Assembly (NCBI GenBank): GCA_014237365.1 | Contig: JABZFQ010000237.1 | Location: 1 to 37,857 of the forward strand | DNA length: 37,857 nucleotides | DNA from: Desulfobacteraceae bacterium | Lineage (GTDB): Bacteria; Desulfobacterota; Desulfobacteria; Desulfobacterales; ETH-SRB1 | Direction of reading: 5' to 3' | Shown here: piece by piece, positions 285 through 19,891 of the stretch | Layout: each line of letters opens with the position of its first letter | Position numbering within the stretch: the first letter of the stretch is position 1 | The notes under the pieces: model-generated | Told to the model about the DNA's origin: nothing | The model's database searches: none | The model's input: only the letters and a program-made list of their open reading frames with translations | Position numbers and translations under genes: made by a program

Positions 285-764
285 ATGAATGTGCGACGTA
301 AAAAAGAAGCCTATTTTGAAAGCATTGCAGGAATGCCGGACCCGCTGACAGTTTATATTAAAAGACGGGTAAAATTCAGTGAAGCAGATGTAATGGGTAT
401 CGTCTGGCACGGCAGATATCCCGAATATTTTGAAGAAGGGTCCGCTGAACTCGGAAGGCGTTACGGTCTTTCGTATAAAGATTTCCATGAAGCTCAACTG
501 AGGGCACCGATTGTACAGCTCCATATAGACCACTTTAAACCTCTTTTTTTGGATGAAGAATTTACCATAAAGGCATCATTGATATGGAATGAAGGCGCCA
601 GGCTAAATACTGAATATTCACTAATTAAAAAAGGTGCTGATATAGCTGCAACCGGTTATACTGTACAGATGTTTATTGACGGAAAAAGCAGTGATGTTCT
701 GATTACCTCGCCAGAGCTTCTGAAAGAATGCCGCAGGCGCTGGAAAAATGGTGAATTTTCATGA
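285..764 (+). CDS. Hotdog-fold acyl-CoA/ACP thioesterase (YbgC/FadM-like)
   Basis: This 159-residue protein has the size and N-terminal motif of single-domain 4-hydroxybenzoyl-CoA thioesterase-type hotdog proteins. The segment RVKFSEADVMGIVWHGRYPEYF (residues 28-49) corresponds to the family signature with the catalytic acid (D35) and the W/Y-H pair before the long helix. Such enzymes hydrolyse acyl thioesters in the cytoplasm; in lipid or polyketide clusters they can release or edit ACP-bound chains. The start at 285 is supported by a GGTGG eight bases upstream; an internal Met at residue 17 also precedes the fold and is possible. It is the first gene of a tightly packed operon and overlaps the next gene by four bases (ATGA). 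The substrate is unknown; a dehydratase-like use of the hotdog fold is less likely given this motif. Confidence 0.8.
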   Translation: MNVRRKKEAYFESIAGMPDPLTVYIKRRVKFSEADVMGIVWHGRYPEYFEEGSAELGRRYGLSYKDFHEAQLRAPIVQLHIDHFKPLFLDEEFTIKASLIWNEGARLNTEYSLIKKGADIAATGYTVQMFIDGKSSDVLITSPELLKECRRRWKNGEFS

Positions 765-1891
765 CAGGAACAAAAGCGGTTGTTGTTGCATGTGACATCG
801 TAACTCCTTATGGCTGGGGAATAGATTCCTGCTGGAATGGGTTGTTATCAAAGAAAACAGCAATAGGGCGTTTGGACAGATTCCCCACAAAGTCTTTTCT
901 TACGCAAAATGCTGCTGTTGTTCCCGGCCTGACGTACGGACAAAATGAATCAATTGTCATTAAAATGCTAAAACCATTACTTCAAAAAAACATTTCTTCA
1001 ATCCCTGAAGATGCATTTCTGATTTTGGCAACTACGACCGGTGAAATTGACAAATTGGAAAGACATGTTCTGAATAAGAGCACTGATGCTGCAAGCAGCC
1101 ACCCTGATAAATTGCTTGAAAAGATATCGCTTCTTTGCCGGATAAACAGCCACGGTATTGTTGTTTCCGCAGCTTGCGCCTCATCAAGTATAGCTATAGC
1201 TCAGGCTGCCGGAATAATTGTCAGCAATGAAAATGACTGTGTTATGGTTGTTGCCTGCGATAGTGTAAGTGAATTTGTTTTTGCAGGATTTTCTTCTTTA
1301 ATGGCGCTTGATAAAGATATGGCAAAACCTTTTGACAGGGACAGAAACGGGTTGAGCCTTGGTGAAGCATCCGGATTTTTATTATTGATGAGCGAATCAA
1401 GAGCATTAAGAGAAAACAGACCTATAATTGGAAAAATCGCGGGATGGGGATTAACAAATGACGCAAACCATATGACAGGCCCATCACGGGATGGAAGCGG
1501 ACTTGCCATGGCTGTACGCAAAGCGCTTAAATCCGCAAATATCTCAGAAAAAGATATCGGCTGCTTTTCAGCCCACGGCACAGGAACCATATACAACGAT
1601 TCTATGGAAATTAAGGCATTAAGAGCTGTTTTTGGAAACCATAAAATTCCTGTATATTCCATTAAAGGTGGAACAGGCCATACCCTTGGAGCAGCCGGTC
1701 TTTTAGAAATAATTATAGCATTTGAGTCCTTAAATAAAAAAATTGTTCCACCTACCGTAAATCTGTGTAATGTTGATAATGAAGCTTCAGGATGGGTTTC
1801 TTCTGAGCCTTTGATATTCGATGCTTCGGTAACAATTTCGACAAACTCCGGATTTGGTGGAGTGAACTGTGCTGTAGTGCTAAAAAAATGA
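761..1891 (+). CDS. Beta-ketoacyl-ACP synthase (FabF-like, complete catalytic triad)
   Basis: The 376-residue protein is a thiolase-fold condensing enzyme. The nucleophile lies in SAACASSS (C139), and the two histidines in AHGTGT (H272) and GGTGHTLGAAG (H307), so the Cys-His-His set is complete and decarboxylative condensation on an acyl carrier protein is expected. It is shorter than FabF (about 410 residues), as is common for KS enzymes of aryl-polyene and ladderane-type clusters. It starts inside the end of the thioesterase gene (ATGA overlap), pointing to coupled translation. A second complete KS is encoded at 7741-8964, and two Cys-less KS-like proteins are also in the locus, suggesting KS/partner heterodimers; which pairs form cannot be told from sequence. 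Confidence 0.88.
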   Translation: MTGTKAVVVACDIVTPYGWGIDSCWNGLLSKKTAIGRLDRFPTKSFLTQNAAVVPGLTYGQNESIVIKMLKPLLQKNISSIPEDAFLILATTTGEIDKLERHVLNKSTDAASSHPDKLLEKISLLCRINSHGIVVSAACASSSIAIAQAAGIIVSNENDCVMVVACDSVSEFVFAGFSSLMALDKDMAKPFDRDRNGLSLGEASGFLLLMSESRALRENRPIIGKIAGWGLTNDANHMTGPSRDGSGLAMAVRKALKSANISEKDIGCFSAHGTGTIYNDSMEIKALRAVFGNHKIPVYSIKGGTGHTLGAAGLLEIIIAFESLNKKIVPPTVNLCNVDNEASGWVSSEPLIFDASVTISTNSGFGGVNCAVVLKK

Positions 1892-1921
1892 TAACTGTTA
1901 AAAAACCCTGAACCTTAAACT

Positions 1922-2596
1922 ATGATTGTCATTAAAGGAATAGGCTGGATTACACTAACAGAATACGGCAGTATTATAAAAAAGCTGCAAGGTAATTATA
2001 ATGATTTAAAATCGTTACATTCTCATTTGCAGCATGAATCAGTGTTAAAATCTGCGATTAAAAATTTCGGAAGATTTGATACTGCTTCAAAGATGACTTG
2101 CTGCTCCATAGCCCTTGCCCTGAATGATGCCGGAATAACATATTCTGAGCATATGAAACATGATGTCGGAATTCTCGGCACAAACAATGATGGATGCTTT
2201 GAGTCTAACCTGGCTTATTTTAAGGATTATGTGTCATGCGGTCGTACAATCGCAAGAGGGAATCTTTTTATCTATACCCTGCCCTCAACCCCTTTGGCTG
2301 AAGCAGCAATTTATTTTGGGTGCCGGGGGCCTCTGCTATATATTAAGTTCCAGCAAAATCAAATACCGTCGATGCTGCGTTATGCCGGCAAAATGATCCT
2401 TCGTGGAGAAACATCAAAAATGATTGCAGTTGAGGCAAGTGAAAAAAAAGCTGTTTGCTTTGTTTTGGGCAATAAAGATAATACTTCAACTATGAAATCG
2501 CTATCCCTTGAAGACGTAGTTGATACTATTGAAAAAACATCTGATTTCGATGAAATGTTAATCCAGAGCACCCCCTATCCCCAAGGGGAAAATTAA
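1922..2596 (+). CDS. Short KS-like protein, catalytic Cys replaced (chain-length-factor type)
   Basis: This 224-residue protein matches only the N-terminal half of a ketoacyl synthase and resembles the short 'beta-ketoacyl synthase, N-terminal-like' family found in aryl-polyene-type clusters. It keeps the region before the nucleophile (KMTCCSIALALNDAGI, residues 57-72; YFGCRGPLL, 131-139). Counting from the conserved GP, the active-site position holds Gln (Q145, in IKFQQNQ) instead of Cys, and the C-terminal half with both catalytic histidines is missing. It is therefore unlikely to condense; by analogy with KS-beta/chain-length factors it may partner the upstream KS. The 30-base gap from that gene contains an AACCCTGAACC-like repeat unit. 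The role as partner is inference. Confidence 0.7.
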   Translation: MIVIKGIGWITLTEYGSIIKKLQGNYNDLKSLHSHLQHESVLKSAIKNFGRFDTASKMTCCSIALALNDAGITYSEHMKHDVGILGTNNDGCFESNLAYFKDYVSCGRTIARGNLFIYTLPSTPLAEAAIYFGCRGPLLYIKFQQNQIPSMLRYAGKMILRGETSKMIAVEASEKKAVCFVLGNKDNTSTMKSLSLEDVVDTIEKTSDFDEMLIQSTPYPQGEN

Positions 2597-2613
2597 ATAA
2601 CGAAAAGGTTAAT

Positions 2614-3885
2614 GTGAAAATTAAGCTAATATACCCGAAATGGCCAAAATTAAAAAATCAGCCTGAATTTAATTTGCCGCCTCACGGCCCGGTTGTTTTT
2701 GCTGCGACAATAAAAGATGATGTTGAAATTTCTTTTTGTGATGAAAATGTAGAAGAACTCGACTTATATGAAGAAGCTGATTTAATTGCCATTTCAGTTC
2801 TGCTGACCTGCCAGATACCACGTGCATGGGAAATCTCTGACTGGTACAGAGCTCACGGAAAAATGGTTATATTCGGCGGGATTGCAACAATGCTGCATGC
2901 AGAAGAAACCATGCAACACGCTGATTCTGTGTTCATTGGCGAACCGGAAGGACGTTTTGATGCCGTTATTGAAGATTTTAAGAAAGGTCAGTTAAAAAAG
3001 ATTTACAACTATCATCAAAATTTTCCTGAAATATCACTGGTTGGAACTGCCAGGAGAAGTATTTTGAAACGCGAACTGTATAACTTCCGTGGTGTTCAAA
3101 TGGTTGATCTTGTCCATGCTTCACGTGGATGCCGTTTCAACTGCTTCCCCTGCTGCACCCCATTTCTTGGAGGAAGGCAGTTCAGACCTCGCCCTATTAA
3201 AGCAGTAATAAAAGAATTGGAAAGTATTAATAACAATCGTCTGTTTTTTGTTGATAATTCCCTGGCTCAAAACGATGAATGGGAAAAGCTGCTGTTTAAA
3301 TCTATTGCGCCCCTAAAAAAGAAATGGATATCTCATCCGATAAAGGATGATGATGAGATACTTGATTTAGCTGTAGAGGCTGGATGCTGGTATGTATATC
3401 AGGCTATTGTGGACACTTCTGATCATATCCGCAAAAAAATAAAGCGGCTGAAAGAACGCGGCATTGGAGTTGAGGGCACTATTCTTCTGGGATTAGATGA
3501 TCATGATGAAGATTATATTAAACGACTGGTGGATTTTCTCCTGGAAATAGATCTGGATCTTGCAGAGTTTACTATCCTTACGCCTTTTCCCCATTCTCCT
3601 GTCAGAAAGCAATTGGAAAAGGAAAACAGAATAATTCACAATGACTGGAAACGTTACACTGCAGGGGAAGTTGTTTTTAAACCAAAAAAAATGAGCGCAG
3701 ACTCACTGCAAAAAATGTATGAATATGCTTGGGAAGCATTCTATGCTGATTGCTGTAAAGAAATAAAGATGGCAAAGCTATATCTTACGGTTATTGAAAA
3801 AGAAAAAAATGACGGAATATATAAAAACATCCGCCTGAGTACAAATCGCTCATGGCCGGTACCCGGCAAAAAGGATATAACCTGA
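2614..3885 (+). CDS. B12-binding-type radical SAM protein 1
   Basis: The 423-residue protein has a Rossmann-like cobalamin-binding-type N-terminal domain (about 1-135, with the strand-turn FGGIATML at 87-94 and IGEPEGRF at 108-115) followed by a radical SAM barrel whose cluster motif is CRFNCFPC (C173, C177, C180, a CxxxCxxC). The classical DxHxxG cobalamin-histidine motif is not visible, as in many members of this class. Such enzymes use a 5'-deoxyadenosyl radical for methylation, cyclisation or rearrangement at unactivated carbons. It starts with GTG after AAAGG and is followed five bases later by a second protein of the same class. It resembles the radical SAM proteins annotated in ladderane-type lipid biosynthesis regions. 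The actual reaction is unknown. Confidence 0.83.
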   Translation: MKIKLIYPKWPKLKNQPEFNLPPHGPVVFAATIKDDVEISFCDENVEELDLYEEADLIAISVLLTCQIPRAWEISDWYRAHGKMVIFGGIATMLHAEETMQHADSVFIGEPEGRFDAVIEDFKKGQLKKIYNYHQNFPEISLVGTARRSILKRELYNFRGVQMVDLVHASRGCRFNCFPCCTPFLGGRQFRPRPIKAVIKELESINNNRLFFVDNSLAQNDEWEKLLFKSIAPLKKKWISHPIKDDDEILDLAVEAGCWYVYQAIVDTSDHIRKKIKRLKERGIGVEGTILLGLDDHDEDYIKRLVDFLLEIDLDLAEFTILTPFPHSPVRKQLEKENRIIHNDWKRYTAGEVVFKPKKMSADSLQKMYEYAWEAFYADCCKEIKMAKLYLTVIEKEKNDGIYKNIRLSTNRSWPVPGKKDIT

Positions 3886-3889
3886 CTTT

Positions 3890-5254
3890 ATGAAAATCCT
3901 GCTAATTTCTTCCAATATCGCAAGCACTCCTTATCCTACATATCCGCTTGGATTAAGTATGGTTGCCGCAGCACTGAAAAATGCCGGATACGATGTATAT
4001 CAATTCGATTTCCTTGAAAACAACTGTTCTCTCGAAAAGCTCGGATATGAAATCAAACAAATTGATCCAGACATTATCGGCATATCAATACGAAATATTG
4101 ATAATGTAAATCTGCTAAATGAACAGAGATATATTGATGTCGTCAAGAATATAGTAAAAAAAATACGGCAGGAAACAGATGCAAAGATTGTTATCGGCGG
4201 TTCAGGGTTCTCTATTATGCCGGACGTAATTTTGCGCGAAATTGGTGCTGATTACGGGATCGTAGGAGAAGGCGAAACATTAATGGTTGAGTTTGTCAAT
4301 AATGCCAGGCAGGGAAAATATCCGGAGCACAGGTGTATCAAAACCTCATTAAAGCTGAGCGGAGATGAAATTCCTTCAGCATTTTATGATCCAGGTATTA
4401 TGGAATTTTATCTGAAAAGCGGCAATATAGCTTCTGTCCAGACAAAACGCGGCTGTACTCATAAATGCGTGTATTGTTCTTATCCTGTCCTTGAAGGTTC
4501 AACCATTCGTTGCAGGGACCCTATAGAGGTTGTTAATGATATTCATACCCTGATGAATAAACACAAGGTCAAATATATATTCTTTACTGATTCTGTATTT
4601 AATGATGACAATGGCCGCTATCTTGATGTGATCAATGAGATGAAAACGCGCGGCATATTTATTCCATGGACGGCTTTTTTCAAGCCTGAAGGCCTTGATG
4701 ACAAACATGTAAAGCTCATGAAACAAACCGGCCTTAAAGCTGCGGAAATGGGAGCTGATGCTGCATCAAACATCACACTGAAAAAACTGGGCAAATCATT
4801 TCAATTCAATGATGTTATCAAATGTAACGACATTTTTAACAGCAACGGCATTGCCACAGCGCATTATTACATGTTTGGCTGCCCCGGGGAAACACGAGAA
4901 ACTGTTATGGAAGGAATACATAATATAATAAACCTGAAAAAAACTGTTTCATTTATTTTTATGGGCATACGTATTCTTCCTGATACCGCTCTTGCCAGGA
5001 CTGCAATTAAGCAAGGCATTATTTCGCCTGACCAGGAATTGCTTGAGCCCGTATATTATATTGCGCATGGAATAGATAAACAGTGGCTTAAAAATACATT
5101 AAATAATGCTTTTAAAGGAATAAGGCATTGTATTTTCCCGCCGGATGTTCTGGATAGCAGCTTACAATTTCTTCATAAACTTGGGTACTCTGGATCCTTG
5201 TGGGACATGCTTATCCCAAAGGATGATAAAACAGCAAACAAAAAAGCAATATGA
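3890..5254 (+). CDS. B12-binding-type radical SAM protein 2
   Basis: At 454 residues this has the same architecture as the preceding gene but is clearly a different subfamily. The N-terminal B12-type domain (YPLGLSMVAAALKNAGYDV at 18-36; VIGGSGFSIMP at 101-111; GEGETLMVEF at 126-135) precedes a radical SAM domain with CTHKCVYC (C189, C193, C196) and a GCPGET segment in the barrel. The C-terminal 100 residues are extra and of unknown role. It starts four bases after the upstream gene and overlaps the glycosyltransferase gene by four bases, so it is firmly within the operon. Two consecutive radical SAM enzymes suggest an unusual chemical step on the ACP- or lipid-bound chain. Magnesium-protoporphyrin cyclase-like or methyltransferase activity cannot be separated by sequence alone. 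Confidence 0.83.
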   Translation: MKILLISSNIASTPYPTYPLGLSMVAAALKNAGYDVYQFDFLENNCSLEKLGYEIKQIDPDIIGISIRNIDNVNLLNEQRYIDVVKNIVKKIRQETDAKIVIGGSGFSIMPDVILREIGADYGIVGEGETLMVEFVNNARQGKYPEHRCIKTSLKLSGDEIPSAFYDPGIMEFYLKSGNIASVQTKRGCTHKCVYCSYPVLEGSTIRCRDPIEVVNDIHTLMNKHKVKYIFFTDSVFNDDNGRYLDVINEMKTRGIFIPWTAFFKPEGLDDKHVKLMKQTGLKAAEMGADAASNITLKKLGKSFQFNDVIKCNDIFNSNGIATAHYYMFGCPGETRETVMEGIHNIINLKKTVSFIFMGIRILPDTALARTAIKQGIISPDQELLEPVYYIAHGIDKQWLKNTLNNAFKGIRHCIFPPDVLDSSLQFLHKLGYSGSLWDMLIPKDDKTANKKAI

Positions 5255-6444
5255 AACAGAACAGCTCATTTTCAACTGAACATATCTGGTGTGTTATTCC
5301 GGTATTTAACAATAAAAATACTGTTAAAGATGTTGTTTTGGGTTGCCGTTCATATTTGCAAAAAGTGGTTGTTGTTGATGATGGCAGCGCTGACACCAAT
5401 ATCTCAGCATTATTTTCCGGCAGCGATATTGAGGTATTGAAGCATAAGAAAAACAGAGGCAAGGGACAGGCTATTCTTACTGCTTTAAGGCATATTGTAG
5501 CCAATGGCGGTCGTTTTATGATTACCATTGATGCGGATGGCCAGCACTATCCCAGGGATTTAGAAAAATTTATACCTTTGCTTCAGGATGATGAAACATC
5601 TGTAATTATCGGGTGCAGAAAATTCAATGGGAAAAACATTCCCAATTCAAGCCGGTTTGGAAGAAAGCTTGCAAATTTCTGGCTTAGAGTAGAAACCGGT
5701 GTATCCATTGATGATTGCCAGAGTGGATTTCGAGCTTACCCTGTAAAACATCTTTTACAGTTGAATATGAAAGGTTCTCATTACGATTTTGAGGCTGAAG
5801 TTCTGGCCAGAGCGGTTTGGGCCGGACTGTATTTAAAAACTGTTGAAATTGACGTCTGGTATCCTGAACCTCATATGCGAATTTCGAATTTTAAACCATT
5901 TATAGATAATTCCCGTATTTCATGTATGCATACCAGGCTGGTTGGAAGGCGTCTTTTGCCGTTTCCGCACCGAAAACTTGTTGCGGTCCATAAAAAACAG
6001 GTTGACTTCAGTTTAATGCGTCATCCTGTAAAATTGTTAAAAAAATTACTGAAAGAAAACGCAAGCCCCGGCGGATTGGCCATATCAGCCGCAGTTGGAA
6101 CCTTTTTTGCAGCACTGCCTCTTATATCAATGCATACCTTAGTAATTGCCTATGTTGCAACACGCCTGCATCTGAATAAAATAATGGCGCTGAATATACA
6201 ACACTTATGCATGCCTCCTTTTGTTCCTCTGATTTGCATTGAGCTTGGTTATTATATGCGAAATGGACAATGGCTGACAGATATTAACCTGAATACAGTT
6301 TTCGGCCAGCTTCCGGCAAGACTTATAGAGTGGTTACTTGGTTCCTTGATTGTTGCACCAATAGCAGCGTTATTAACAGGTATGATTGTATTTGGCGCTG
6401 CGCAAATGTTTCGCAAGAGAATTAGTAATTATGAAGCCAAATAA
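5251..6444 (+). CDS. Glycosyltransferase family 2 fused to DUF2062 membrane domain
   Basis: Residues about 10-235 form a GT2 (GT-A fold) domain of the dolichyl-phosphate-mannose-synthase kind: IPVFNN at 16-21, VVDDGS at 41-46 and the metal-binding DADGQH at 94-99. Residues about 255-390 match DUF2062, with GGLAISAAVGTFFAALPL and two or three hydrophobic segments that should anchor it in the inner membrane. GT2-DUF2062 fusions next to LpxL-type acyltransferases and ACPs recur in aryl-polyene-type and related lipid clusters, which fits transfer of a sugar or headgroup to a lipid on the cytoplasmic face. It overlaps the radical SAM gene by four bases and the acyltransferase gene by fourteen. The donor and acceptor are unknown. 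Confidence 0.85.
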   Translation: MKQNSSFSTEHIWCVIPVFNNKNTVKDVVLGCRSYLQKVVVVDDGSADTNISALFSGSDIEVLKHKKNRGKGQAILTALRHIVANGGRFMITIDADGQHYPRDLEKFIPLLQDDETSVIIGCRKFNGKNIPNSSRFGRKLANFWLRVETGVSIDDCQSGFRAYPVKHLLQLNMKGSHYDFEAEVLARAVWAGLYLKTVEIDVWYPEPHMRISNFKPFIDNSRISCMHTRLVGRRLLPFPHRKLVAVHKKQVDFSLMRHPVKLLKKLLKENASPGGLAISAAVGTFFAALPLISMHTLVIAYVATRLHLNKIMALNIQHLCMPPFVPLICIELGYYMRNGQWLTDINLNTVFGQLPARLIEWLLGSLIVAPIAALLTGMIVFGAAQMFRKRISNYEAK

Positions 6445-7339
6445 ACAGTCACAAAATATAACTATCCGGAAAAGAGGAAATAAATTCGGCTTCTGGTTTT
6501 TTAAAGCTCTCCTGAAATTATTCGGGCTACGCAAAACATATGGTTTTTTGTATATTGTTTGCCTTTATTATTTGGTTTTTGACCGGACTGCGGTTTCGGC
6601 TGCCCTGTCATATATAAATAAAAGATTTCCCGATTGCAGCTATTTAATAAGGCTGTTGCATGTTTACCGTCTGTTTATTAGTCAGGGGAAGCAGCTTATT
6701 GACAGATATGCGTCTGTTTCCGGGCATACAAGATTTGATATTCAACTTAATGGATACAATGAGTTGATAGCCCTGCTTCAAAATAATAAACAAGGAATAA
6801 TTTTGTTAACATCACATGCAGGTAGCTGGCAAATCGCCTTAACCGCCTTAAAAAAAACAGGAAGAACAGTATATCTTCTTATGCGCCCCGAAGACAACAT
6901 AGCGGTACGAAGTTCGCTGAATATTGACAGAGAACAGGATAATATAAAAATTATTTTTCCGGATCAATATCTTGGTGGTATAGTAGAAATAATGGCTGTT
7001 TTGAAAAAAGGCCATATTGTATCTATCATGGGAGACAGAAGGTACGGGGCTAAATCCGTTGAAGTTGCATTTTTAGGTGAAAAAGCATGGTTCCCTTTCA
7101 GCGGTTTTGCTGTCGCCGCCGCAGTTGAATCTCCTGTAGTGGTTTTGCTGTCAAATAAGGTTTCAAGCCATAAGTATATTGTTGATGTATCCAATGTGAT
7201 ATATCCGCGCTATGATAGAAAATATAATAAGCGACAACAACTCAATCAGTGGGTTCAGAATTACGCAAAAATAATTGAAGCGTTTGTTAAAAAGTATCCA
7301 TACCAATGTTTTCTGTTTCATGACGTCTGGAGTGGATAA
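6431..7339 (+). CDS. LpxL/HtrB-like lysophospholipid acyltransferase
   Basis: A 302-residue protein of the lipid A late acyltransferase family. The catalytic block is LLTSHAGSWQIALTAL (125-140), in which the usual HxxxxD/E reads H129-AGSW-Q134, so the acidic partner is Gln, a variation also met in some distant homologues. A second block, GDRRYGAKSVEVAFLGEKAWFPFSG, matches the family's GxR..G..V.FFG region. A hydrophobic stretch near residues 36-50 suggests membrane association. An ATG further upstream in frame at 6386 would overlap the previous gene by 59 bases; the ATG at 6431 gives the usual N-terminus and a 14-base overlap. It probably moves the ACP-bound acyl or polyene chain onto a glycerol- or sugar-containing acceptor. 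Confidence 0.82.
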   Translation: MKPNKQSQNITIRKRGNKFGFWFFKALLKLFGLRKTYGFLYIVCLYYLVFDRTAVSAALSYINKRFPDCSYLIRLLHVYRLFISQGKQLIDRYASVSGHTRFDIQLNGYNELIALLQNNKQGIILLTSHAGSWQIALTALKKTGRTVYLLMRPEDNIAVRSSLNIDREQDNIKIIFPDQYLGGIVEIMAVLKKGHIVSIMGDRRYGAKSVEVAFLGEKAWFPFSGFAVAAAVESPVVVLLSNKVSSHKYIVDVSNVIYPRYDRKYNKRQQLNQWVQNYAKIIEAFVKKYPYQCFLFHDVWSG

Positions 7340-7349
7340 GGAGATATCG

Positions 7350-7622
7350 ATGAAAGACCAAAAAGAAAAGGAATTGCCTGAAATACGAAAAAAGTTAAAA
7401 GAACTGCTGGTAGAAAATCTTTCATTAGAAGATATAAAACCGGAAGAAATTAAAGATGATGAAATTTTGTTTGGAGAAGGTCTGGGGCTGGATTCTCTTG
7501 ATGCAGTGGAAATTGTTGTACTGCTTCAGCGCAATTTTGGTATAGAAATCAAAGATATGAAGGAAGGTCAAAAAATATTCTATTCAATTGATACACTGGC
7601 TAATTACGTATATGAAAACTGA
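7350..7622 (+). CDS. Acyl carrier protein
   Basis: A 90-residue, highly acidic protein with the phosphopantetheine attachment motif GLDSLD; the modified serine is S49. The start is fixed by AAGGAGATATCGATG, the strongest ribosome-binding site in this operon; an earlier in-frame ATG at 7275 lies inside the acyltransferase gene and is not needed. It lies ten bases after the acyltransferase gene. As a dedicated ACP it should carry the chain made by the KS enzymes around it and present it to the radical SAM, glycosyl- and acyltransferase steps. The lysine-rich first 12 residues are slightly longer than in the housekeeping AcpP. Confidence 0.92.
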   Translation: MKDQKEKELPEIRKKLKELLVENLSLEDIKPEEIKDDEILFGEGLGLDSLDAVEIVVLLQRNFGIEIKDMKEGQKIFYSIDTLANYVYEN

Positions 7623-7634
7623 TAATCGTTCATG

Positions 7635-7716
7635 GGTTCAAGGTTCAGGGTTCAAGGTTAAATATGATGAAGATTGAGGCAAACAACTGTAAACCGTAAA
7701 CCATGAACCGTGAACC
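7635..7716. repeat. Heptad-periodic inverted repeat (GGTTCAA/TGAACC)
   Basis: Between the ACP and the second KS, 7635-7659 is a run of near seven-base units (GGTTCAA, GGTTCAG, GGTTCAA) and 7689-7716 a run of the complementary type (GTAAACC, GTAAACC, ATGAACC, GTGAACC). The two arms can pair across a 29-base loop. Similar units appear at 1899-1915 and 14010-14027. The array lies within the operon and may act as an RNA structure between acpP-like and KS genes; it may also be a neutral spreading repeat. Confidence 0.6.
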
Positions 7717-7740
7717 TGACAACCTGAGCAGTTACGATAA

Positions 7741-8964
7741 ATGAAAATATTTATCACAGGAATTGGCGGAATCTCTGCTGCCGGAAGAAATATAACAGAG
7801 CATCTTGAATCATTTCAGCTCATGAAAAGAAATGCCGGCACGGTTAGTTTGTTCGACACATCTTTATCATATCCGGTTTTTGAGGTAAAAAGCCCCCTGA
7901 TTAATAAACAAATTAATAAGCAAAAAAATGAAATGCGCACCCTGTCTCTCGCTATGTTTGCACTAAAAGAAGCTTTACATGATGCCGGCCTGCAAAAAAA
8001 CCTTTCCGGCATTAAAACAGGGGTATGTTTTGGGACCAGCGTGGCAAGCCAGTTGAATGACATTGATTTTTACCGAACATATCGGAATACAGGAGCGGCA
8101 GACATGGCCTCTGTTGACCGCTTTCTAAAGGGTAACCTTGCCGAAGCTGTTGCTAAATCAATAAAAGCAAACGGGCCATCAGTCACCGTAGTTAACGCCT
8201 GCTCGTCCGGTGCTGACGCAATAGGAGTGGCTCTGTCATGGTTAAGAAACGGTGTATGCGATATTGCCATTGCCGGTGGAGCAGACGAATTGAACAGAAT
8301 TCCTTTATGTGGTTTTGGAGCACTTGGGATTTTAAGCAAATCTTTATGCAGACCTTTTGATAAAGACCGCTCAGGATTGAACCTGGGTGAAGGAGCAGGA
8401 GTTCTGATTCTTGAGACAGAAAAGTCTGCATCCCTAAGAGGTAAAAAGTCAGCGCTGCTGCTTGCAGGATACGGTGCAGCAGGAGATGCATACCATCTCA
8501 CAGCCCCTCGTCCTGACGGTTCAGGACTGGAGTCAGCATTGCGCAAATCTTTCGCTGATGCAAATATTACTCCACAAGATGTATGTTTTGTAAATGCTCA
8601 CGGCACTGCGACTCATGATAATGATAAAGTTGAAGGAATTGTGCTTGAAAAAGTTTTTGGGTCAGAAATAAAATTTCTTTCAACAAAAGGTTACACTGGC
8701 CATACTCTTGGCGCCGCAGGAGGTTTGGAAGCAGCATTTACAGCTTCTGCCCTGAGAGAATGCTGGATACCTGCCAGCGCAGGTTTTGTTCAACAGGATG
8801 ATGATATACCTATCAAACCGATTACAGAGCAAACACAAATAAATGGTAGTTTTGCTGTATCCACATCGCTGGCTTTCGGCGGGAATAATGCCTCTATTGT
8901 TATTGCCAGAGTTCTCGACCATCTGAAGATTGGGCACGATCTTGTTAAAGAGTGGGGTAGCTGA
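7741..8964 (+). CDS. Beta-ketoacyl-ACP synthase II-like (FabF-like)
   Basis: The 407-residue protein has the normal FabF length and all catalytic residues: C154 in VNACSSGAD, H287 in NAHGTATHD and H321 in KGYTGHTLGAAG. FDKDRSGLNLGEGAG (206-220) is the usual loop near the active site. It should extend ACP-bound chains by two carbons with malonyl-ACP. It follows the ACP after 118 bases that hold a repeat, and is the last gene of the compact run. It differs from the KS at 761-1891 in length and motif context, so the two probably have different partners or chain lengths. The start is the ATG at 7741, with weak upstream signals. Confidence 0.88.
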   Translation: MKIFITGIGGISAAGRNITEHLESFQLMKRNAGTVSLFDTSLSYPVFEVKSPLINKQINKQKNEMRTLSLAMFALKEALHDAGLQKNLSGIKTGVCFGTSVASQLNDIDFYRTYRNTGAADMASVDRFLKGNLAEAVAKSIKANGPSVTVVNACSSGADAIGVALSWLRNGVCDIAIAGGADELNRIPLCGFGALGILSKSLCRPFDKDRSGLNLGEGAGVLILETEKSASLRGKKSALLLAGYGAAGDAYHLTAPRPDGSGLESALRKSFADANITPQDVCFVNAHGTATHDNDKVEGIVLEKVFGSEIKFLSTKGYTGHTLGAAGGLEAAFTASALRECWIPASAGFVQQDDDIPIKPITEQTQINGSFAVSTSLAFGGNNASIVIARVLDHLKIGHDLVKEWGS

Positions 8965-9015
8965 AAGCTATTGAAATCCCAACATGCTGATCTGAGAATT
9001 AGAAACAGGTGCGAT

Positions 9016-9201
9016 ATGCAAATATCTGATATTAAACCAAACGTAATCGTTAAATGCCCAATTTTCCCGGAACGTGTAAAGGTCATCGCTAAGGATTTCT
9101 GGCTTTATGTAGTATTCAACTGTGCCTCGACACCGGAAATCCACCTGATTCGAGACCCCGTGAAATCAGGGTGGAAACCGCTTATAAAAATTGAGCATTA
9201 G
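9016..9201 (+). pseudogene. Fragment resembling the N-terminus of a helicase-like protein
   Basis: A 61-codon open stretch starts MQISDIKPNVIVKCPIFPE, which resembles the first residues of large SNF2/DEAD-type helicase proteins of defence islands (pattern 'I.PG..V.GP.FPEPV.V'). The similarity stops after about 25 residues, and the stop codon TAG at 9199-9201 is part of a solitary end of the TAAGGAAC-type repeat (9198-9210). It is most likely a truncated remnant. The match is from memory of the family and is weak; a short unrelated gene is possible. Confidence 0.3.
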
Positions 9202-9240
9202 GAACGTGGAAAGCAGCAGGCGGTTTATTGCAATTTCAAA

Positions 9241-9484
9241 TGAGTGTAACCAAAATAGAACAAAATTAGAGAACTCTCGGGATCATAGCATGTTGATTTT
9301 ATAGCGAAATTTCCTGTCGGTATTTAAGTCTCAAACTTTGCTACCACAACATATTGTGACAGTACTTTCTGAACCCACTATATGAACTATTGTTTTTACT
9401 ACAAATAGTTGAATTTTATCTATCCTTTAATCCAGAAAATTCTGGGTTCATCAAGCTGGTATTGTTCTATTTTGGTTACACTCA
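9241..9484. repeat. 244-bp element with 23-bp perfect inverted ends
   Basis: Positions 9241-9263 (begins TGAGTGTAACCAAAATAG) are the exact reverse complement of 9462-9484. The inside has no credible gene but contains a smaller hairpin (CTGAACCCA near 9369 with TGGGTTCA near 9443). The 23 of 23 match over 198 bases of spacer indicates a MITE-like mobile element or a recent palindromic insertion in the gap between the KS and the KS-like gene. Confidence 0.65.
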
Positions 9485-9493
9485 ATTGTTTTA

Positions 9494-9720
9494 AGGTATA
9501 TTGGCATCCTTCATTCACCAGTTTACACTTTTTTCGAAAAAGTGTGTATTATCGAATTGAATGCCGATATCGAAACTGGAAATTTGAAATTAGCTAACGC
9601 ATCTACATCTTTATATTTTTTCCAATTTCCAATTTCTAGTTTCAAATTTCACTGCCAAAATACAAGATCAACAAAGTGTAAACTACTTTTGACTTGTCGT
9701 GAAGGATGCCGGGTATATTG
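9494..9720. repeat. Nested inverted repeat abutting the KS-like gene
   Basis: Two nested pairs of perfect 11-bp arms occur: GGCATCCTTCA (9503-9513) with 9700-9710, and AGTTTACACTT (9520-9530) with 9674-9684. Inside are a hairpin around TTTTTTCGAAAAA and GAAATTTGAAA-type inverted units. The right arm ends immediately before the ATG at 9722. A related single arm (AAGTGTAAACT then TGAAGGA) occurs at 27920-27943, so this is a dispersed family. Confidence 0.5.
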
Positions 9721-9721
9721 C

Positions 9722-10792
9722 ATGAATATTGCGGGCATAGGAATAGTTTCTGCCAGAGGACGCGGAATTAATAGCCTCGACATCGCATTGCGAGAAGGCT
9801 GGATCGCACCATCTCAAATAAAGCCGCGTAACGATCAAAATGCTTTTTATCCCGCATACATCGTTGGGAAAGAAACTATAAATGATATAAATCTGTTAAA
9901 AAAAATACGCAGAGCAGACAGATTCAGCAAAATGGCTGTGCTGGCCGCATGGGATGCAGTCGTTGACAGCGGTATTCAAATTAATGACAAAGAATCAACC
10001 ATTGGAATTATTCTCGCAACAGCTTTCGGGCCCCATGTAACAACTTTTCGGTTTCTTGATGATATTATAGATTATGGCGATGGCAGTGTCTCTCCGACAA
10101 CGTTTTCGCATTCAGTTCATAATGCCGCAACATCATATATCTCAAAGGTGTTGAATTGCAGGGGTCCAACTTTAACGCTTACCCAGTTCACTTCGCCGAT
10201 TCATCAGGCTCTTATTCTTGCTCAAGCATGGCTGGAAGAAGAGCGCTGCAAATACGTCCTTACCGGCTGTGTTGATGAATGCGGGAATGTTATGGACTAT
10301 ATATGTAATCAAAAATTACGAATTGCGGATGACGGTAAAATTAGACCGTTTAATTTTTCGGCTTCACCATCGGCTGTGCCAGGAGAAGGAAGTGTATTTT
10401 TTATGACAACCTTGGAAAAATGTCGGAATAAATATTGCGTAATCATACCTGCCCCTATGACTAATTGCGACACTATAAAAAAATCTGATATATATATTAT
10501 AGAAGCTGATGGTATGGCAGGAGATGAAACATCATATCAAGATACACTTCCTGTTGATGTTCCTATCGGAGGATATGCGCCAATATTTGGAAGTATAAAG
10601 ATTATCAGCGCATTCCATTGCGCTGCAGGTGCGCTTATGATAAAAAAACAAATTAAATACGTTTGCCCAGTTCAGGAAAATCCGTATGATCTTAATATAA
10701 TTACAAAAACAGAATTATCCAAAATCGAACAAATCTGCTGCATTAGAAAAAATTGTGCCAATGAAACAAACATAATTAGACTAATGCGATAA
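9722..10792 (+). CDS. KS-like chain-length-factor-type protein without catalytic Cys
   Basis: A 356-residue ketoacyl-synthase-fold protein. Its N-terminal half aligns with the KS at 7741 (GIGIVSARG at 5-13; GIILATAFGP at 95-104; CRGPTLTLTQFTSPIHQALILAQAWLEE at 146-173), but the nucleophile position, eight residues after the conserved GP, is Thr157, with Gln155 nearby. The AHGT histidine motif is also absent (the region reads IIEADGMAGDE) and the C-terminus is about 50 residues shorter than FabF. It therefore looks like a KS-beta/chain-length factor that needs an active KS partner. The frame is open to 9542, but homology and GTATATTGCATG at the start favour 9722. It is separated from the operon by about 750 bases of repeats, so it may have its own promoter. 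Confidence 0.75.
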   Translation: MNIAGIGIVSARGRGINSLDIALREGWIAPSQIKPRNDQNAFYPAYIVGKETINDINLLKKIRRADRFSKMAVLAAWDAVVDSGIQINDKESTIGIILATAFGPHVTTFRFLDDIIDYGDGSVSPTTFSHSVHNAATSYISKVLNCRGPTLTLTQFTSPIHQALILAQAWLEEERCKYVLTGCVDECGNVMDYICNQKLRIADDGKIRPFNFSASPSAVPGEGSVFFMTTLEKCRNKYCVIIPAPMTNCDTIKKSDIYIIEADGMAGDETSYQDTLPVDVPIGGYAPIFGSIKIISAFHCAAGALMIKKQIKYVCPVQENPYDLNIITKTELSKIEQICCIRKNCANETNIIRLMR

Positions 10793-16299: not shown

Positions 16300-18240
16300 A
16301 TGATTAAGGCCTTTCGGGATATCTGGGAGCTGGGCATTCATTCGTATCTGACTTATCTGCGGGATCGCCTGCTGCTTGCTCGTGAAATGCTGCATGAAAG
16401 CGGTAGCGTGTTTGTGCAGATTAGTGATGAGAATGTGCATCATGTTCGGGAGATTATGGATGAAGTGTTTGGGTATCAAAACTTTATGGGTCAAATAGTT
16501 TTTATTAAAACTGCAGCACTTATGGGCAATCATTTATCTAGTAATTATGATTATTTACTGTGGTTTTCGAAGAATAAGGAAAAAGCAAAATATAGACAAT
16601 TATTTATCCCTAAAAAGGAAAGAACGGAATTAGGTACGTTTTCTTGGGTTGAGCTTACTAATGGGGAATGTAGAAGATTGTCAAAGGTTGAAATGAAAGG
16701 AGAAATCCATGTTCCTGAAGGTTATAGGAGATTCAGAGCTTCTGATTTATCTGGTCAAGGAGAAACAAGTAGCGGTTCATATGAACTTGAATTTGAAGGA
16801 GGTAAATATTTCCCTCCAAATGGTAGACACTGGACAACGAATCTTGCAGGAATGAAAAAACTCATAGCAGCTAAACGAATTATAAAACAAGGGAGTGGCT
16901 TAGCTTATAAAAGATTTGAAGATGATTATCCTGTTATGCCAATTGTTACTGTCTGGGATGATACAATAATTGGAACATTTTCGCAAAAAATATACGTTGT
17001 GCAAACTGGTAAATTAGCCGTTGAAAGATCTCTGTTAATGACCACCGATCCGAGCGACATAGTCCTCGACATAAGCTGTGGCAGCGGCACAACAGCCAAT
17101 GTAGCCGAGCAATGGGGCAGACGATGGATAACCTGCGATACTTCAAGAGTAGCTCTCACACTTGCCAAGCAACGGCTAATGACCGCAAATTTTGATTATT
17201 ACAAACTGGCACATCCAAACGAAGGCATCAGCAGTGGTTTTGAGTACAAATCCGTGCCGCATATTACGCTAAAAAGCATTGCCAACAATGAACCTCCGGC
17301 AACGGAAACACTTTACGATCAGCCTTATATTGACAACAAGAAAACCCGCATCACCGGCCCCTTCACAGTCGAAGCCGTCCCTGCTCCTTATGCCAAAAGC
17401 TTTGATGAACTGAGAAATGATGATAGCGGTTCAGACACCTCTATTGCCCGCACCGGTGAAACCCACCGCCAAAGCGAATGGCGGGATGAGTTATTAAGAG
17501 CAGGTGTAAGAGCCAAGGGCGGAAAGATAATTCAGTTCACCCGAGTCGAGCCGCTTTCAGGCACAAAATTCATTCAGGCAGAAGCGGAAACTAAAGAAGA
17601 TGTTCCCCAAAAAGTATTGGTTATCTTTGGCCCGGAACATGCGCCGCTGGAACAAAGACAGGTGGAAAACGCCTGGCAGGAGGCCCGTGCTTTAAATCCC
17701 GATATGCTTTTGTTCTGCGCTTTCCAGTTTGACGATGAAGCGGCCAAAGATATTGATGAACTTACTCCTGAAATTGCTGGCATGCAGCTCTTAAAAGCAC
17801 AGATGAATGCGGATATGTTTACCGATGATCTGCGTAAAAAACGTTCAAGCAATGAAAGTTTCTGGCTGGTGGGTCAACCTGATGTAAAGGTTCATAAACA
17901 AAAAGACGGTAAACTACAGGTGGAAGTAATGGGTTTTGACTATTATAATCCCAAAACCGGTAATGTGGAAAGCGGAGGTAAAAAGAACATTGCCATGTGG
18001 ATGCTGGATACCGATTACGACAATCGGTCGCTTTTTCCATCACAGGTATTCTTCCCAATGGCAGGAGCAAAGGACGGATGGGCAAAACTGGCCAGGAACT
18101 TAAAAGCTGAAATAGACGAAGAAAAAATCGAAGCTTTTAAAGGTACCATTTCCCTTCCTTTCAAACCTGGCAGTGCTGTTGCAGTAAAAATCATTGATGA
18201 TCGCGGGATTGAATCCCTGCGGGTAATAAAGGTGGCATAA
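16300..18240 (+). CDS. Type III-like DNA methyltransferase (Mod), 5'-truncated
   Basis: The 646-residue frame is the middle and end of a beta-class adenine methyltransferase of type III-like systems. The cofactor motif reads VLDISCGSGTTANVAEQWGRRW (about 254-275; usual form DPTCGSGT). Homology continues upstream of the ATG in the same frame (GGIKYGSNFQPFVNKRDV, near 16207-16260) and stops at a point where the catalytic DPPY motif and the N-terminal 100 or so residues should be: the sequence there reads REDSGGIKYGSNF in place of DPPYGIKYGSNF, and a stop lies at 16159. No start codon precedes 16300. The enzyme should therefore be inactive. The next gene starts on its stop codon (TAATG). Confidence 0.85.
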   Translation: MIKAFRDIWELGIHSYLTYLRDRLLLAREMLHESGSVFVQISDENVHHVREIMDEVFGYQNFMGQIVFIKTAALMGNHLSSNYDYLLWFSKNKEKAKYRQLFIPKKERTELGTFSWVELTNGECRRLSKVEMKGEIHVPEGYRRFRASDLSGQGETSSGSYELEFEGGKYFPPNGRHWTTNLAGMKKLIAAKRIIKQGSGLAYKRFEDDYPVMPIVTVWDDTIIGTFSQKIYVVQTGKLAVERSLLMTTDPSDIVLDISCGSGTTANVAEQWGRRWITCDTSRVALTLAKQRLMTANFDYYKLAHPNEGISSGFEYKSVPHITLKSIANNEPPATETLYDQPYIDNKKTRITGPFTVEAVPAPYAKSFDELRNDDSGSDTSIARTGETHRQSEWRDELLRAGVRAKGGKIIQFTRVEPLSGTKFIQAEAETKEDVPQKVLVIFGPEHAPLEQRQVENAWQEARALNPDMLLFCAFQFDDEAAKDIDELTPEIAGMQLLKAQMNADMFTDDLRKKRSSNESFWLVGQPDVKVHKQKDGKLQVEVMGFDYYNPKTGNVESGGKKNIAMWMLDTDYDNRSLFPSQVFFPMAGAKDGWAKLARNLKAEIDEEKIEAFKGTISLPFKPGSAVAVKIIDDRGIESLRVIKVA

Positions 18241-19379
18241 TGGCAGGCAGAGTTGAAAATATAAATAAGGACATATTGCGTCAATGCCGTAAGCAGATTG
18301 GTTTGAGTCTTCCTGCCGTTGCAAAAAAAGTGGCAAAGATTGCTGTCATAGAGCAGGGAGATCAAAAACCGACCTTTAAACAATTAGATACTCTTGCGGA
18401 GCTATATAAAGTGCCGCGCTGGGTATTTATTTCAGAGCATCTTCCTGAAAAATATCAGCTTGATAAGGCAATACCCGCCTTCCGTCAGTTTATCGACAGC
18501 AATGCAGATGTTTTCAGTGAACATAAGGTTCGCAGCCTGATCGCTCGGGTTGACCGTTTCCGTGAGCTGATTTTAGAACTGCGCGAAGATATGGACGAAC
18601 CGGTGACTGACTTTCATCCGCTGGCGTTGAAAAGAAATGTTGCGTCGGATTTTGCGGCGCAACAGGTGCGTGACTGGTTAGACATAACAGAAGAGAGTTT
18701 TAAGTTTTCTAAATGGAAAGAAATGCTGGAAGAAAAAAACATTTTTGTTTTTATGACCAGTAAGTATAAGGGGTGGTCTCATGTGGATAAGGCGCTGTTT
18801 CGTGGGCTGGCCATTTACCATCAGAAATTACCGATCATCATTATCAATGATTCAGATGCAAAAAAGGCCCAATCATTCACCTTGTTTCATGAGTTAGGAC
18901 ACCTGCTTAGAAAGGAAAGCGCGATTGATGACTGGGGCGCGTATCACCAGCGGGTTGAAAGATGGTGTGATGAGTTGTCCGGCAATGTATTGATGCCTGC
19001 TGCTCAGTTTCAAACCGCTATTCACAACATAAATATAGATGACCTGGATGAGATAAAAAGTATCGCCGGTAATTTTCAGGTCAGTGCTTATGCCTGCCTG
19101 GTGCGACTCCGACAATTGCGGCTAATTGATCAGGACGATTATCTGCATTTTGAAGCACAATTAAAGGCTGAATATAGAAAGTTGCAAAAGAAACTTAAAG
19201 AAAGTGCTGGCGGGCCTGCCAGAAACCGTCCGCAGGAAGTGCTTAATCAATACGGACATATTTACGCGAATGCCCTTTTTCAGGCATATCGCAACAAGGA
19301 GTTTGGGTTACATAAACTTTGTCAAGCATTTGATTTAAAGCGCGTTCCTTATGTTTTAGAGATAGGCAGGCAACTATGA
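18240..19379 (+). CDS. XRE-type HTH plus ImmA/IrrE metallopeptidase
   Basis: A 379-residue protein. Residues about 10-60 form a helix-turn-helix resembling the Cro/C1 (XRE) type (QCRKQIGLSLPAVAKKV..KIAVIEQGDQKPTFKQLDTLAELY), and the middle carries the zinc-peptidase motif FHELGH (H217-H221) with the third ligand expected in the following WCDELSGNVLMP segment. ImmA/IrrE proteins cleave repressors to switch genes on; this kind is often found next to DUF4411 genes, where a toxin-antitoxin role has been suggested. It starts on the Mod stop codon and overlaps the DUF4411 gene by four bases, so the four genes 16300-22705 form one transcription unit. Confidence 0.86.
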   Translation: MAGRVENINKDILRQCRKQIGLSLPAVAKKVAKIAVIEQGDQKPTFKQLDTLAELYKVPRWVFISEHLPEKYQLDKAIPAFRQFIDSNADVFSEHKVRSLIARVDRFRELILELREDMDEPVTDFHPLALKRNVASDFAAQQVRDWLDITEESFKFSKWKEMLEEKNIFVFMTSKYKGWSHVDKALFRGLAIYHQKLPIIIINDSDAKKAQSFTLFHELGHLLRKESAIDDWGAYHQRVERWCDELSGNVLMPAAQFQTAIHNINIDDLDEIKSIAGNFQVSAYACLVRLRQLRLIDQDDYLHFEAQLKAEYRKLQKKLKESAGGPARNRPQEVLNQYGHIYANALFQAYRNKEFGLHKLCQAFDLKRVPYVLEIGRQL

Positions 19380-19888
19380 GTGGTCAATATTGCCTTGATG
19401 CCAATATTTTTATCACTGCCTGGAACAGCAGCTATCCCATGAAGGTGTTTCCATCTTTATGGGAACACCTTGCACAATACCGAAATAATCTTGTTTTGAT
19501 CAAACCTGTCTTTGATGAGATTGACCCCATTTCATCGGCAGATAAAAAACTGCCAAAGAACAAAAAAAAAGAAAAATATTCACTGCGTGTTTGGATGATA
19601 GATAATCATTTTGACGCAAAGCCGATTACTGATGAAATAAATGCTGTTTCTCTGGAGTTAGAGAAAGAATATGAAACAAATAATAATCCAAAAGGCGCTA
19701 ATCAAAATGATATTACCTTAATTGCCCACGCAAAGGTAAAAGAGAAAATTGTTGTAACCTGTGAAGAAGAGCAAACTCAAAAGCCGGGAAAGAAAAAAAA
19801 TTACAAGATTCCTCTGATTTGTAATGAACAAGGCGTTGAGTGGATCAAATTTGTAACAATGCTGGATCGTCTTGGTATAAGGATATAG
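19376..19888 (+). CDS. DUF4411 family protein (PIN-like)
   Basis: The 170-residue protein starts MSGQYCLDANIFITAWNSSYP, the DUF4411 signature, with acidic residues spaced as in PIN-domain nucleases (D9 in LDANIF, D/E in PVFDEIDPI, D in NQNDITLIAHAK). PIN domains are Mg-dependent RNA nucleases and the usual toxin component. It overlaps the ImmA/IrrE gene by four bases and lies three bases before the res gene. A toxin paired with the HTH-peptidase as antitoxin, embedded in a restriction-modification operon, is a reasonable inference, not shown by sequence alone. Confidence 0.8.
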   Translation: MSGQYCLDANIFITAWNSSYPMKVFPSLWEHLAQYRNNLVLIKPVFDEIDPISSADKKLPKNKKKEKYSLRVWMIDNHFDAKPITDEINAVSLELEKEYETNNNPKGANQNDITLIAHAKVKEKIVVTCEEEQTQKPGKKKNYKIPLICNEQGVEWIKFVTMLDRLGIRI

Positions 19889-19891
19889 CGG

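Follow-up and report, generated by a model that had tools for sequence, protein, structure and literature searches.

The window analysed here is a 37,857-nucleotide stretch of contig JABZFQ010000237.1 from a Desulfobacteraceae bacterium (hereafter the host). Positions 285-10792 contain ten intact ORFs, all on the + strand, which encode, in order, a thioesterase (TE), a ketosynthase (KS1), a short KS-like protein (CLF1), two radical SAM proteins (RSa and RSb), a GT2-DUF2062 glycosyltransferase, an LpxL-like acyltransferase, an ACP, a second ketosynthase (KS2), and a further KS-like protein (CLF2). The gene set, coordinates and catalytic residues given for this run in an earlier note, made from the sequence, agree with the ORFs, residue positions and Pfam/NCBIfam domains found here (4HBT thioesterase, two FabF-type KS, two B12-binding/radical SAM, GT2 plus DUF2062, Lip_A_acyltrans, PP-binding ACP, and KS-like). 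The same note described a single operon in which most genes overlap or touch; the spacing is close only as far as ACP, with gaps of -14 to +30 from TE onwards, as KS2 starts 118 bp past ACP and CLF2 757 bp past KS2. The latter gap (8965-9721, no strand assigned) contains a MITE-like repeat element, whose 27-bp inverted ends lie at 9237-9263 and 9462-9488 and whose family is present in the host genome. In a congener (L126) the insertion is absent and the KS2 and CLF2 ORFs are adjacent/overlapping.

Gene order in the core is conserved in many Desulfobacterota, including several genera of the order, which answers the check on gene order that the earlier note had proposed, and it is also retained on Omnitrophota and Nitrospirota contigs. 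The dN/dS values, 0.05-0.40 across the ten genes, show that purifying selection acts on every one of them. Given the recurrence of the gene order in several genera and other phyla, together with these dN/dS values, the block is not a chance assembly.

TE (285-764, +) is a YbgC/FadM-type hotdog thioesterase (Pfam 4HBT_2, 2e-13) that resembles E. coli ApeK (28% identity, 2e-17). The GT2-DUF2062 glycosyltransferase (5251-6444, +), recognized by Pfam, matches the N-terminal half of ApeJ (33%, 2e-29), and the LpxL-like acyltransferase (6431-7339, +; Pfam 6e-20) matches its C-terminal half (2e-12). The catalytic HX4(D/E) motif of the latter reads HAGSWQ (His129), with Gln replacing the acidic residue. 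The ACP (7350-7622, +) is of the ApeE type; its best NCBIfam model, PRK09184 (76 bits, cut-off 70), is also the best model for E. coli ApeE.

While the earlier note counted four KS-type proteins, active-site triads are found in two of these, KS1 (761-1891, +; C139-H272-H307) and KS2 (7741-8964, +; C154-H287-H321), whereas CLF1 and CLF2 are catalytically dead, partner-type subunits. In our tree KS1 forms a separate clade with no counterpart in the E. coli aryl polyene (APE) cluster. KS2 is of the ApeO type: it is sister to ApeO (support 93/77; 35% identity, 2e-64), and its best NCBIfam model, PRK09185, is ApeO's own best model (289 bits for KS2, below the cut-off of 407). CLF1 (1922-2596, +) is half the size of a KS, lacks the active-site Cys, and matched no Pfam or NCBIfam family. 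Profile comparisons relate it to the N-terminal half of KS (7e-10) and to the actinorhodin chain-length factor (1.4e-5), and its AlphaFold model (pLDDT 79.5) is half a thiolase fold with a structural match to 1tqy_B; it is thus a probable chain-length factor of KS1. CLF2 is full-length, carries TQFTS in place of the catalytic Cys, matches Pfam ketoacyl-synt (9e-14), and is the probable chain-length factor of KS2; it most likely starts at 9722 rather than 9542 (9722-10792, +). Both KS2 and CLF2 match PDB 9s5h, in which KS-like chains form a heteromer; our literature search found no paper on this entry. As expected of an aryl polyene cluster, an ApeO-type KS is thus adjoined by a KS-like partner subunit.

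The radical SAM pair was said to recall ladderane-type regions, and a profile search bears this out for one member only. RSb (3890-5254, +; CxxxCxxC at 189) is a full-length B12-binding/radical SAM member of TIGR04072 (rSAM_ladder_B12), scoring 634 bits against a cut-off of 360 over model positions 1-442 of 443. RSa (2614-3885, +; GTG start; CxxxCxxC at 173-180) reaches 50 bits against the same cut-off, and belongs instead to an unnamed B12-binding-like/radical SAM family. It is highly conserved (mean column identity of 71% across 19 sequences) and scores marginally below the gathering cut-offs that Pfam sets for B12-binding and Radical_SAM, such that cobalamin binding by RSa is putative. The nearest solved fold is that of AprD4, a radical SAM diol dehydratase (PDB 6fd2, TM 0.79); while the folds are alike, the two proteins share only 17-18% identity, AprD4 acts in a separate pathway, and the AprD4 model gives RSa 36 bits against a cut-off of 500.

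The earlier note placed the steps that have no genes in the window elsewhere, and targeted searches of the host genome located the absent ketoreductase (KR), ligases, and dehydratase pieces on contigs C212, C59, C56, and C66. In relatives, KR, dehydratase, ligase, and exporter genes adjoin the core. Reliance on general FASII for the KR, dehydratase and ligase, the other option, was dropped in view of the genes on these four contigs. C212 carries a further ketosynthase (KS0), the KR, and a second ACP (ACP0). KS0 falls in a clade that includes ApeR (support 100/100; 44% identity, 3e-115) and KR resembles ApeQ (43%, 6e-61), so that an ApeR-type KS, an ApeQ-type KR, and two ACPs, one of them in the window, are all present. 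A SPASM radical SAM protein matches ApeP at its C-terminus (6e-10), MMPL matches ApeM (1e-9), and Pfam matches to LolA, DUF3261, and ApeI-like proteins occur in the full set of genes. The LolA/MMPL/DUF3261 export module is found in congeners and other relatives; the host assembly yielded no MMPL exporter, and the flanking genes lie at contig ends, which carry the 5' end of LolA (the only part of the module found) and the 3' portion of the ApeI-like gene. The host exporter therefore probably lies within an assembly gap.

Homologues of 13 of the 18 E. coli CFT073 ape genes (apeA-R) are contained in the full set, which, with the ApeO- and ApeR-type KS and the ApeE-type ACP, upholds the suggested resemblance to aryl polyene clusters. 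Shared features comprise KR, both KS types, a half-size KS partner, ApeE/F-type ACPs, ApeI/ApeP-like dehydratases, an ApeK-like TE, PlsC, and, as seen in relatives, LolA/MMPL/DUF3261 export, with ApeJ represented by the split GT2 and LpxL genes. Distinguishing features here are the additional KS1-CLF1 pair, RSa, RSb, the SPASM radical SAM protein, phytoene-desaturase-like FAD proteins, and a FlxY-like ligase in place of ApeH; comparison with the E. coli ape genes found no counterparts of the ApeH-type ligase, ApeA, ApeB, or ApeG in the full set. ApeC is reported to be half-size (PMC8358021), as is CLF1, but neither sequence nor profile comparison gave a match between the two; CLF2 matches ApeC weakly (hhalign 3.8e-4).

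Flexirubin clusters (Chitinophaga pinensis flxA-Y), going by the part of the published account consulted (PMC3992019), share a FlxY-like aryl-CoA ligase, a FlxB-like reductase, LolA, an exporter, a glycosyltransferase, an acyltransferase, and, with individual relatives of the host, an aromatic lyase and a polysaccharide deacetylase (the latter in a Nitrospirota locus). Unlike flexirubin enzymes, the ligase (on C212) and reductase of the host upstream module score 484.5 and 305 bits, below the FlxY and FlxB equivalog cut-offs of 520 and 340, these being the nearest curated families, and B12-radical SAM genes go unmentioned in that part of PMC3992019. Among relatives, an aromatic amino-acid lyase lies within one core cluster (L032) and directly adjoins RSa at five other loci. 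No PF00221 protein was found in the host genome, which leaves the host starter without a local aromatic lyase as its source and makes the aryl acid invoked below a putative one.

Based on gene content, order, conservation, catalytic residues, and homology, we infer a starter, a series of reactions, and a product, and consider it fairly probable that the core encodes a highly reducing type II PKS of the aryl-polyene/flexirubin kind. Its product, akin to pigment-type polyene lipids, would be tailored by radical SAM enzymes, joined to a lipid, and delivered to the outer membrane. The FlxY-like ligase would activate an aryl acid for loading onto ACP, the ApeR-like KS0 would start the chain, and KS2-CLF2 (ApeO-type) and KS1-CLF1 would extend it with malonyl units, with the ApeQ-like KR and hotdog dehydratases generating a polyene. 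RSb, RSa, and the SPASM radical SAM protein may then act on the chain while it is bound to ACP, or on the aryl head, by methylation, dehydration, or ring formation, which are indistinguishable here. TE, the LpxL-like and PlsC-like acyltransferases, and GT2-DUF2062 would free the chain and attach it to a lipid or sugar anchor, and the LolA/MMPL/DUF3261 system would carry it to the outer membrane. Several results tell against this reading: the host genome yielded no aromatic lyase and its assembly no MMPL exporter, CLF1 does not match ApeC and CLF2 does so weakly, the ApeH-type ligase, ApeA, ApeB, and ApeG have no counterparts, and the LpxL-like protein carries Gln at the acidic catalytic position. 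The likeness to aryl polyene clusters seen by the earlier note is upheld; the radical modification and glycosylation that it envisaged for the chain are presumed steps, and a ladderane product is not supported.

Clusters of this kind have been known since 2009, when they were described by Rattray et al. for Kuenenia stuttgartiensis and Desulfotalea psychrophila (PMC2649909). By that description they share with the host cluster radical SAM/B12 proteins, several KS with and without catalytic residues, a PCL-type ligase, a phytoene-desaturase-like protein, a glycosyltransferase, and a membrane transporter. In D. psychrophila, which contains C31:8/C31:9 hydrocarbons, the authors proposed a role in polyunsaturated fatty acid/hydrocarbon synthesis, and an anaerobic pathway forming non-aromatic polyunsaturated chains via a modified FASII is a credible if unlikely explanation of the host cluster. 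It draws on published synteny and lipid data, and the mix of phytoene-desaturase-like, ligase, glycosyltransferase, and SAM genes recurs with the clusters surveyed here, as does a membrane transporter; however, the link between cluster and hydrocarbons was that paper's own inference, made without a genetic test (PMC2649909), and the correspondence, gene by gene, with aryl polyene and flexirubin clusters, the FlxY-like ligase, the lyases beside RSa, and the outer-membrane export module argue against it.

It is very improbable that this non-anammox cluster makes fused-cyclobutane ladderane lipids, a reading in which RSb and RSa would close the rings on a polyene bound to ACP. Despite the strong membership of RSb in a family named for ladderane clusters, and the synteny reported between Kuenenia and a deltaproteobacterium, ladderanes were sought and not found in D. 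psychrophila, which carries syntenic clusters (PMC2649909); evidence for ladderanes is confined to anammox bacteria, where even so the pathway is unproven (PMC9821293). Least credible is a mere duplicate of a fatty-acid or lipid A modification operon with no dedicated product: housekeeping relatives exist for the KS, ACP, TE, and LpxL-like genes alike, but such a role is difficult to reconcile with two pairs of KS and partner, a conserved pair of radical SAM genes, the export module, and conservation of the block between phyla. More speculatively, and with a rather low probability, RSa and RSb may work jointly on a polyene, aryl or aliphatic, bound to ACP and close rings by radical chemistry of a kind not yet described. 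This widespread anaerobic cluster family would then be the parent of anammox ladderane synthesis, and the dead KS paralogues in Kuenenia would be chain-length factors.

So-called "ladderane" clusters, a poorly understood group that includes the host cluster, have been reported from many anaerobic phyla without a product assigned to them (PMC9902471), and an aryl-polyene/flexirubin-like pathway with radical SAM steps would provide a concrete product class to seek for them. Chain-length-factor partners would give a plain account of the KS-like proteins that lack catalytic residues. The operon is small enough for testing in a laboratory host, and its function bears on the origin of the ladderane pathway.

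Ten intact genes, all on the forward strand, occupy positions 285-10792 in the order thioesterase (TE), ketosynthase KS1, CLF1 (a ketosynthase-like, putative partner subunit without the active-site Cys), radical SAM proteins RSa and RSb, GT2-DUF2062, LpxL-like protein, ACP, KS2, and CLF2 (a second, Cys-less putative partner). The domain calls made for these genes in the earlier note were borne out, and the catalytic residues it named are right. Spacing from TE to ACP ranges from -14 to +30 bp, followed by gaps of 118 bp between ACP and KS2, and 757 bp between KS2 and CLF2. The latter gap is an insertion, as it carries a repeat with inverted ends and the KS2 and CLF2 open reading frames are adjacent and overlapping in a congener (G001, locus L126). 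This MITE-like repeat (9237-9488; inverted ends of 27 bp here) belongs to a host-genome family of dozens of partial copies with inverted ends of about 27-40 bp, often located near contig ends on many contigs, and is probably a cause of both the fragmented host assembly (3.49 Mb in 382 contigs, of which the window is one entire contig) and the break-up of the cluster. Comparison with congeners revealed purifying selection on every core gene, with dN/dS values from 0.05 (ACP) to 0.40 (CLF1), and 0.10 for RSa.

Relatives carry, ahead of the core, genes encoding a ketoreductase (KR), a phytoene-desaturase-like FAD protein, an ApeR-like ketosynthase (KS0), an ACP, PlsC, the AMP ligase LigA, a SPASM radical SAM protein whose C-terminus is ApeP-like, LolA, an MMPL/RND exporter, a protein with DUF3261, and a dehydratase resembling ApeI. 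After the core come genes for a small secreted protein, ACP2, a ~445-aa protein without family, an FAD oxidoreductase, and another AMP ligase. The same pathway pieces are scattered over several host contigs: C212 carries KR through SPASM, followed by an argJ-like gene; C59 terminates in the start of LolA; the 3' end of the gene for the ApeI-like protein stands at the end of C56; and C66 starts with ACP2. A search of the host assembly did not turn up the exporter. In G001, LigA to ApeI lie on the core's own contig, about 15 kb upstream of the core. The host SPASM protein (L116:12978-14474, on C212) is an unusual fusion, its C-terminal part resembling the ApeP dehydratase.

Counterparts were identified for 13 of the 18 genes of the E. 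coli CFT073 aryl polyene (ape) cluster, LolA and DUF3261 being entered on Pfam matches. The strongest matches were KS0 with ApeR (44%, 3e-115), KS2 with ApeO (35%, 2e-64), and KR with ApeQ (43%, 6e-61), while the two halves of ApeJ were matched by GT2 and the LpxL-like protein, respectively. ApeO and KS2, ApeR and KS0, and ApeE and ACP share their best NCBIfam models, with KS2 and KS0 scoring below the cut-offs. In the ketosynthase tree, the KS0 clade includes ApeR with full support, KS2 is sister to ApeO (93/77), and KS1 forms a separate clade. Host LigA and KR are nearest to the flexirubin proteins FlxY and FlxB, respectively, with scores 7-10% below cut-offs. A limited literature search found no statement of a gene-for-gene match of such clusters to aryl polyene clusters. 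One core cluster (L032) encodes an aromatic amino-acid lyase, as do five other loci, in which it stands beside RSa; none was found in the host genome. Loci in which RSa directly adjoins such a lyase (MIO motif ASG; L159, L160, L167, L168, and L169), and where TE, GT2, and a large protein of MMPL type are mostly present as well, are a further cluster type.

The earlier note had likened the region to ladderane-type clusters, in which radical SAM and ketosynthase genes occur together. Profile searches against the ladderane-named family TIGR04072 placed RSb in it as a full member, and not RSa. The latter belongs to an unnamed family (mean column identity 71% over 19 sequences), and its predicted model (pLDDT 85) most closely resembles that radical SAM dehydratase known as AprD4 (TM 0.79), followed by B12-dependent methylases. 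Clusters of this kind were found in Kuenenia and Desulfotalea (Rattray et al. 2009, PMC2649909). A ladderane product is not supported, given that no ladderanes were found in Desulfotalea, for which a PUFA/hydrocarbon route was proposed (Rattray et al. 2009, PMC2649909), that the 'ladderane' clusters reported since then from many anaerobic phyla are of unknown function (PMC9902471), and that heterologous expression of anammox genes yielded no ladderanes, as cited in PMC9821293. For the Kuenenia ketosynthase paralogues without Cys/His/His, recruitment of foreign chains was proposed as a possibility (Rattray et al. 2009, PMC2649909); a partner-subunit role of Cys-less proteins would be a simpler reading.

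CLF2 is full length and lacks the catalytic Cys in alignment. CLF1 had no family match; its profile picks up ketosynthases over their N-terminal half, as well as the actinorhodin chain-length factor, and its predicted model is half a thiolase fold (pLDDT 79.5). ApeC has likewise been described as half as large as its ketosynthase, with a single thiolase domain (PMC8358021); attempts to demonstrate direct homology between CLF1 and the E. coli protein were unsuccessful. Chains B and C of PDB 9s5h/9s5i, a solved heteromer of two ketosynthase-like chains, are among the nearest structures by sequence to KS2 (7741-8964) and CLF2 (9722-10792). Activity of the LpxL-like protein is uncertain, since its motif reads HAGSWQ (His129 at 6815) versus the family HX4D/E in all core clusters examined; Gln replaces the acidic residue in every core-cluster protein read, and Glu is retained in ApeJ and more distant relatives.

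In the proposed mechanism, KS0 would initiate a chain on an aryl starter, which the two ketosynthase-CLF pairs would elongate without enoyl reduction; the product would then be tailored by radical chemistry, attached to an anchor (lipid or sugar), and, finally, exported. PMC8253772 summarises what ApeC, O, R, K, J, D, L, M, and N do in E. coli.

Elsewhere in the window, positions 16300-22705 hold a type III restriction-modification island that also includes additional genes; it encodes a DNA methylase, an IrrE-type peptidase/HTH protein, a DUF4411 PIN protein, and a ResIII helicase. In congener G005 (L039), KS2 is followed by a Mod start resembling this one, along with other defence-like genes. 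Cytochrome-b-type and ferredoxin-type subunits at the contig end (36480-37855), assigned by reading, resemble DsrM/DsrK, as expected of a sulfate reducer.

RSa is present in 30 of 247 genomes sampled from the phylum, and genes for a ketosynthase, ACP, KR, thioesterase, or aromatic lyase lie close to RSa in 19 of the 20 such loci read. Conservation of gene order, whose absence in relatives the earlier note had named as one ground for refuting its proposal, holds: all or most of the ten-gene arrangement is kept by congeners and by other genera within the order (L032, L033, L040, L041, and L043), as well as in metagenome-assembled contigs labelled Omnitrophota and Nitrospirota, and at least RSa and RSb occur in one labelled Kiritimatiellia. 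A contig binned as Bacteroidales is nearly identical in layout to an Omnitrophota contig (L060 and L063), likely reflecting misbinning or very recent transfer. Trees of KS1, KS2, CLF2, and RSb give the same grouping, with the Omnitrophota and Nitrospirota sequences falling in the window's subgroup, and this concordance suggests that the core block may move between phyla as a unit.
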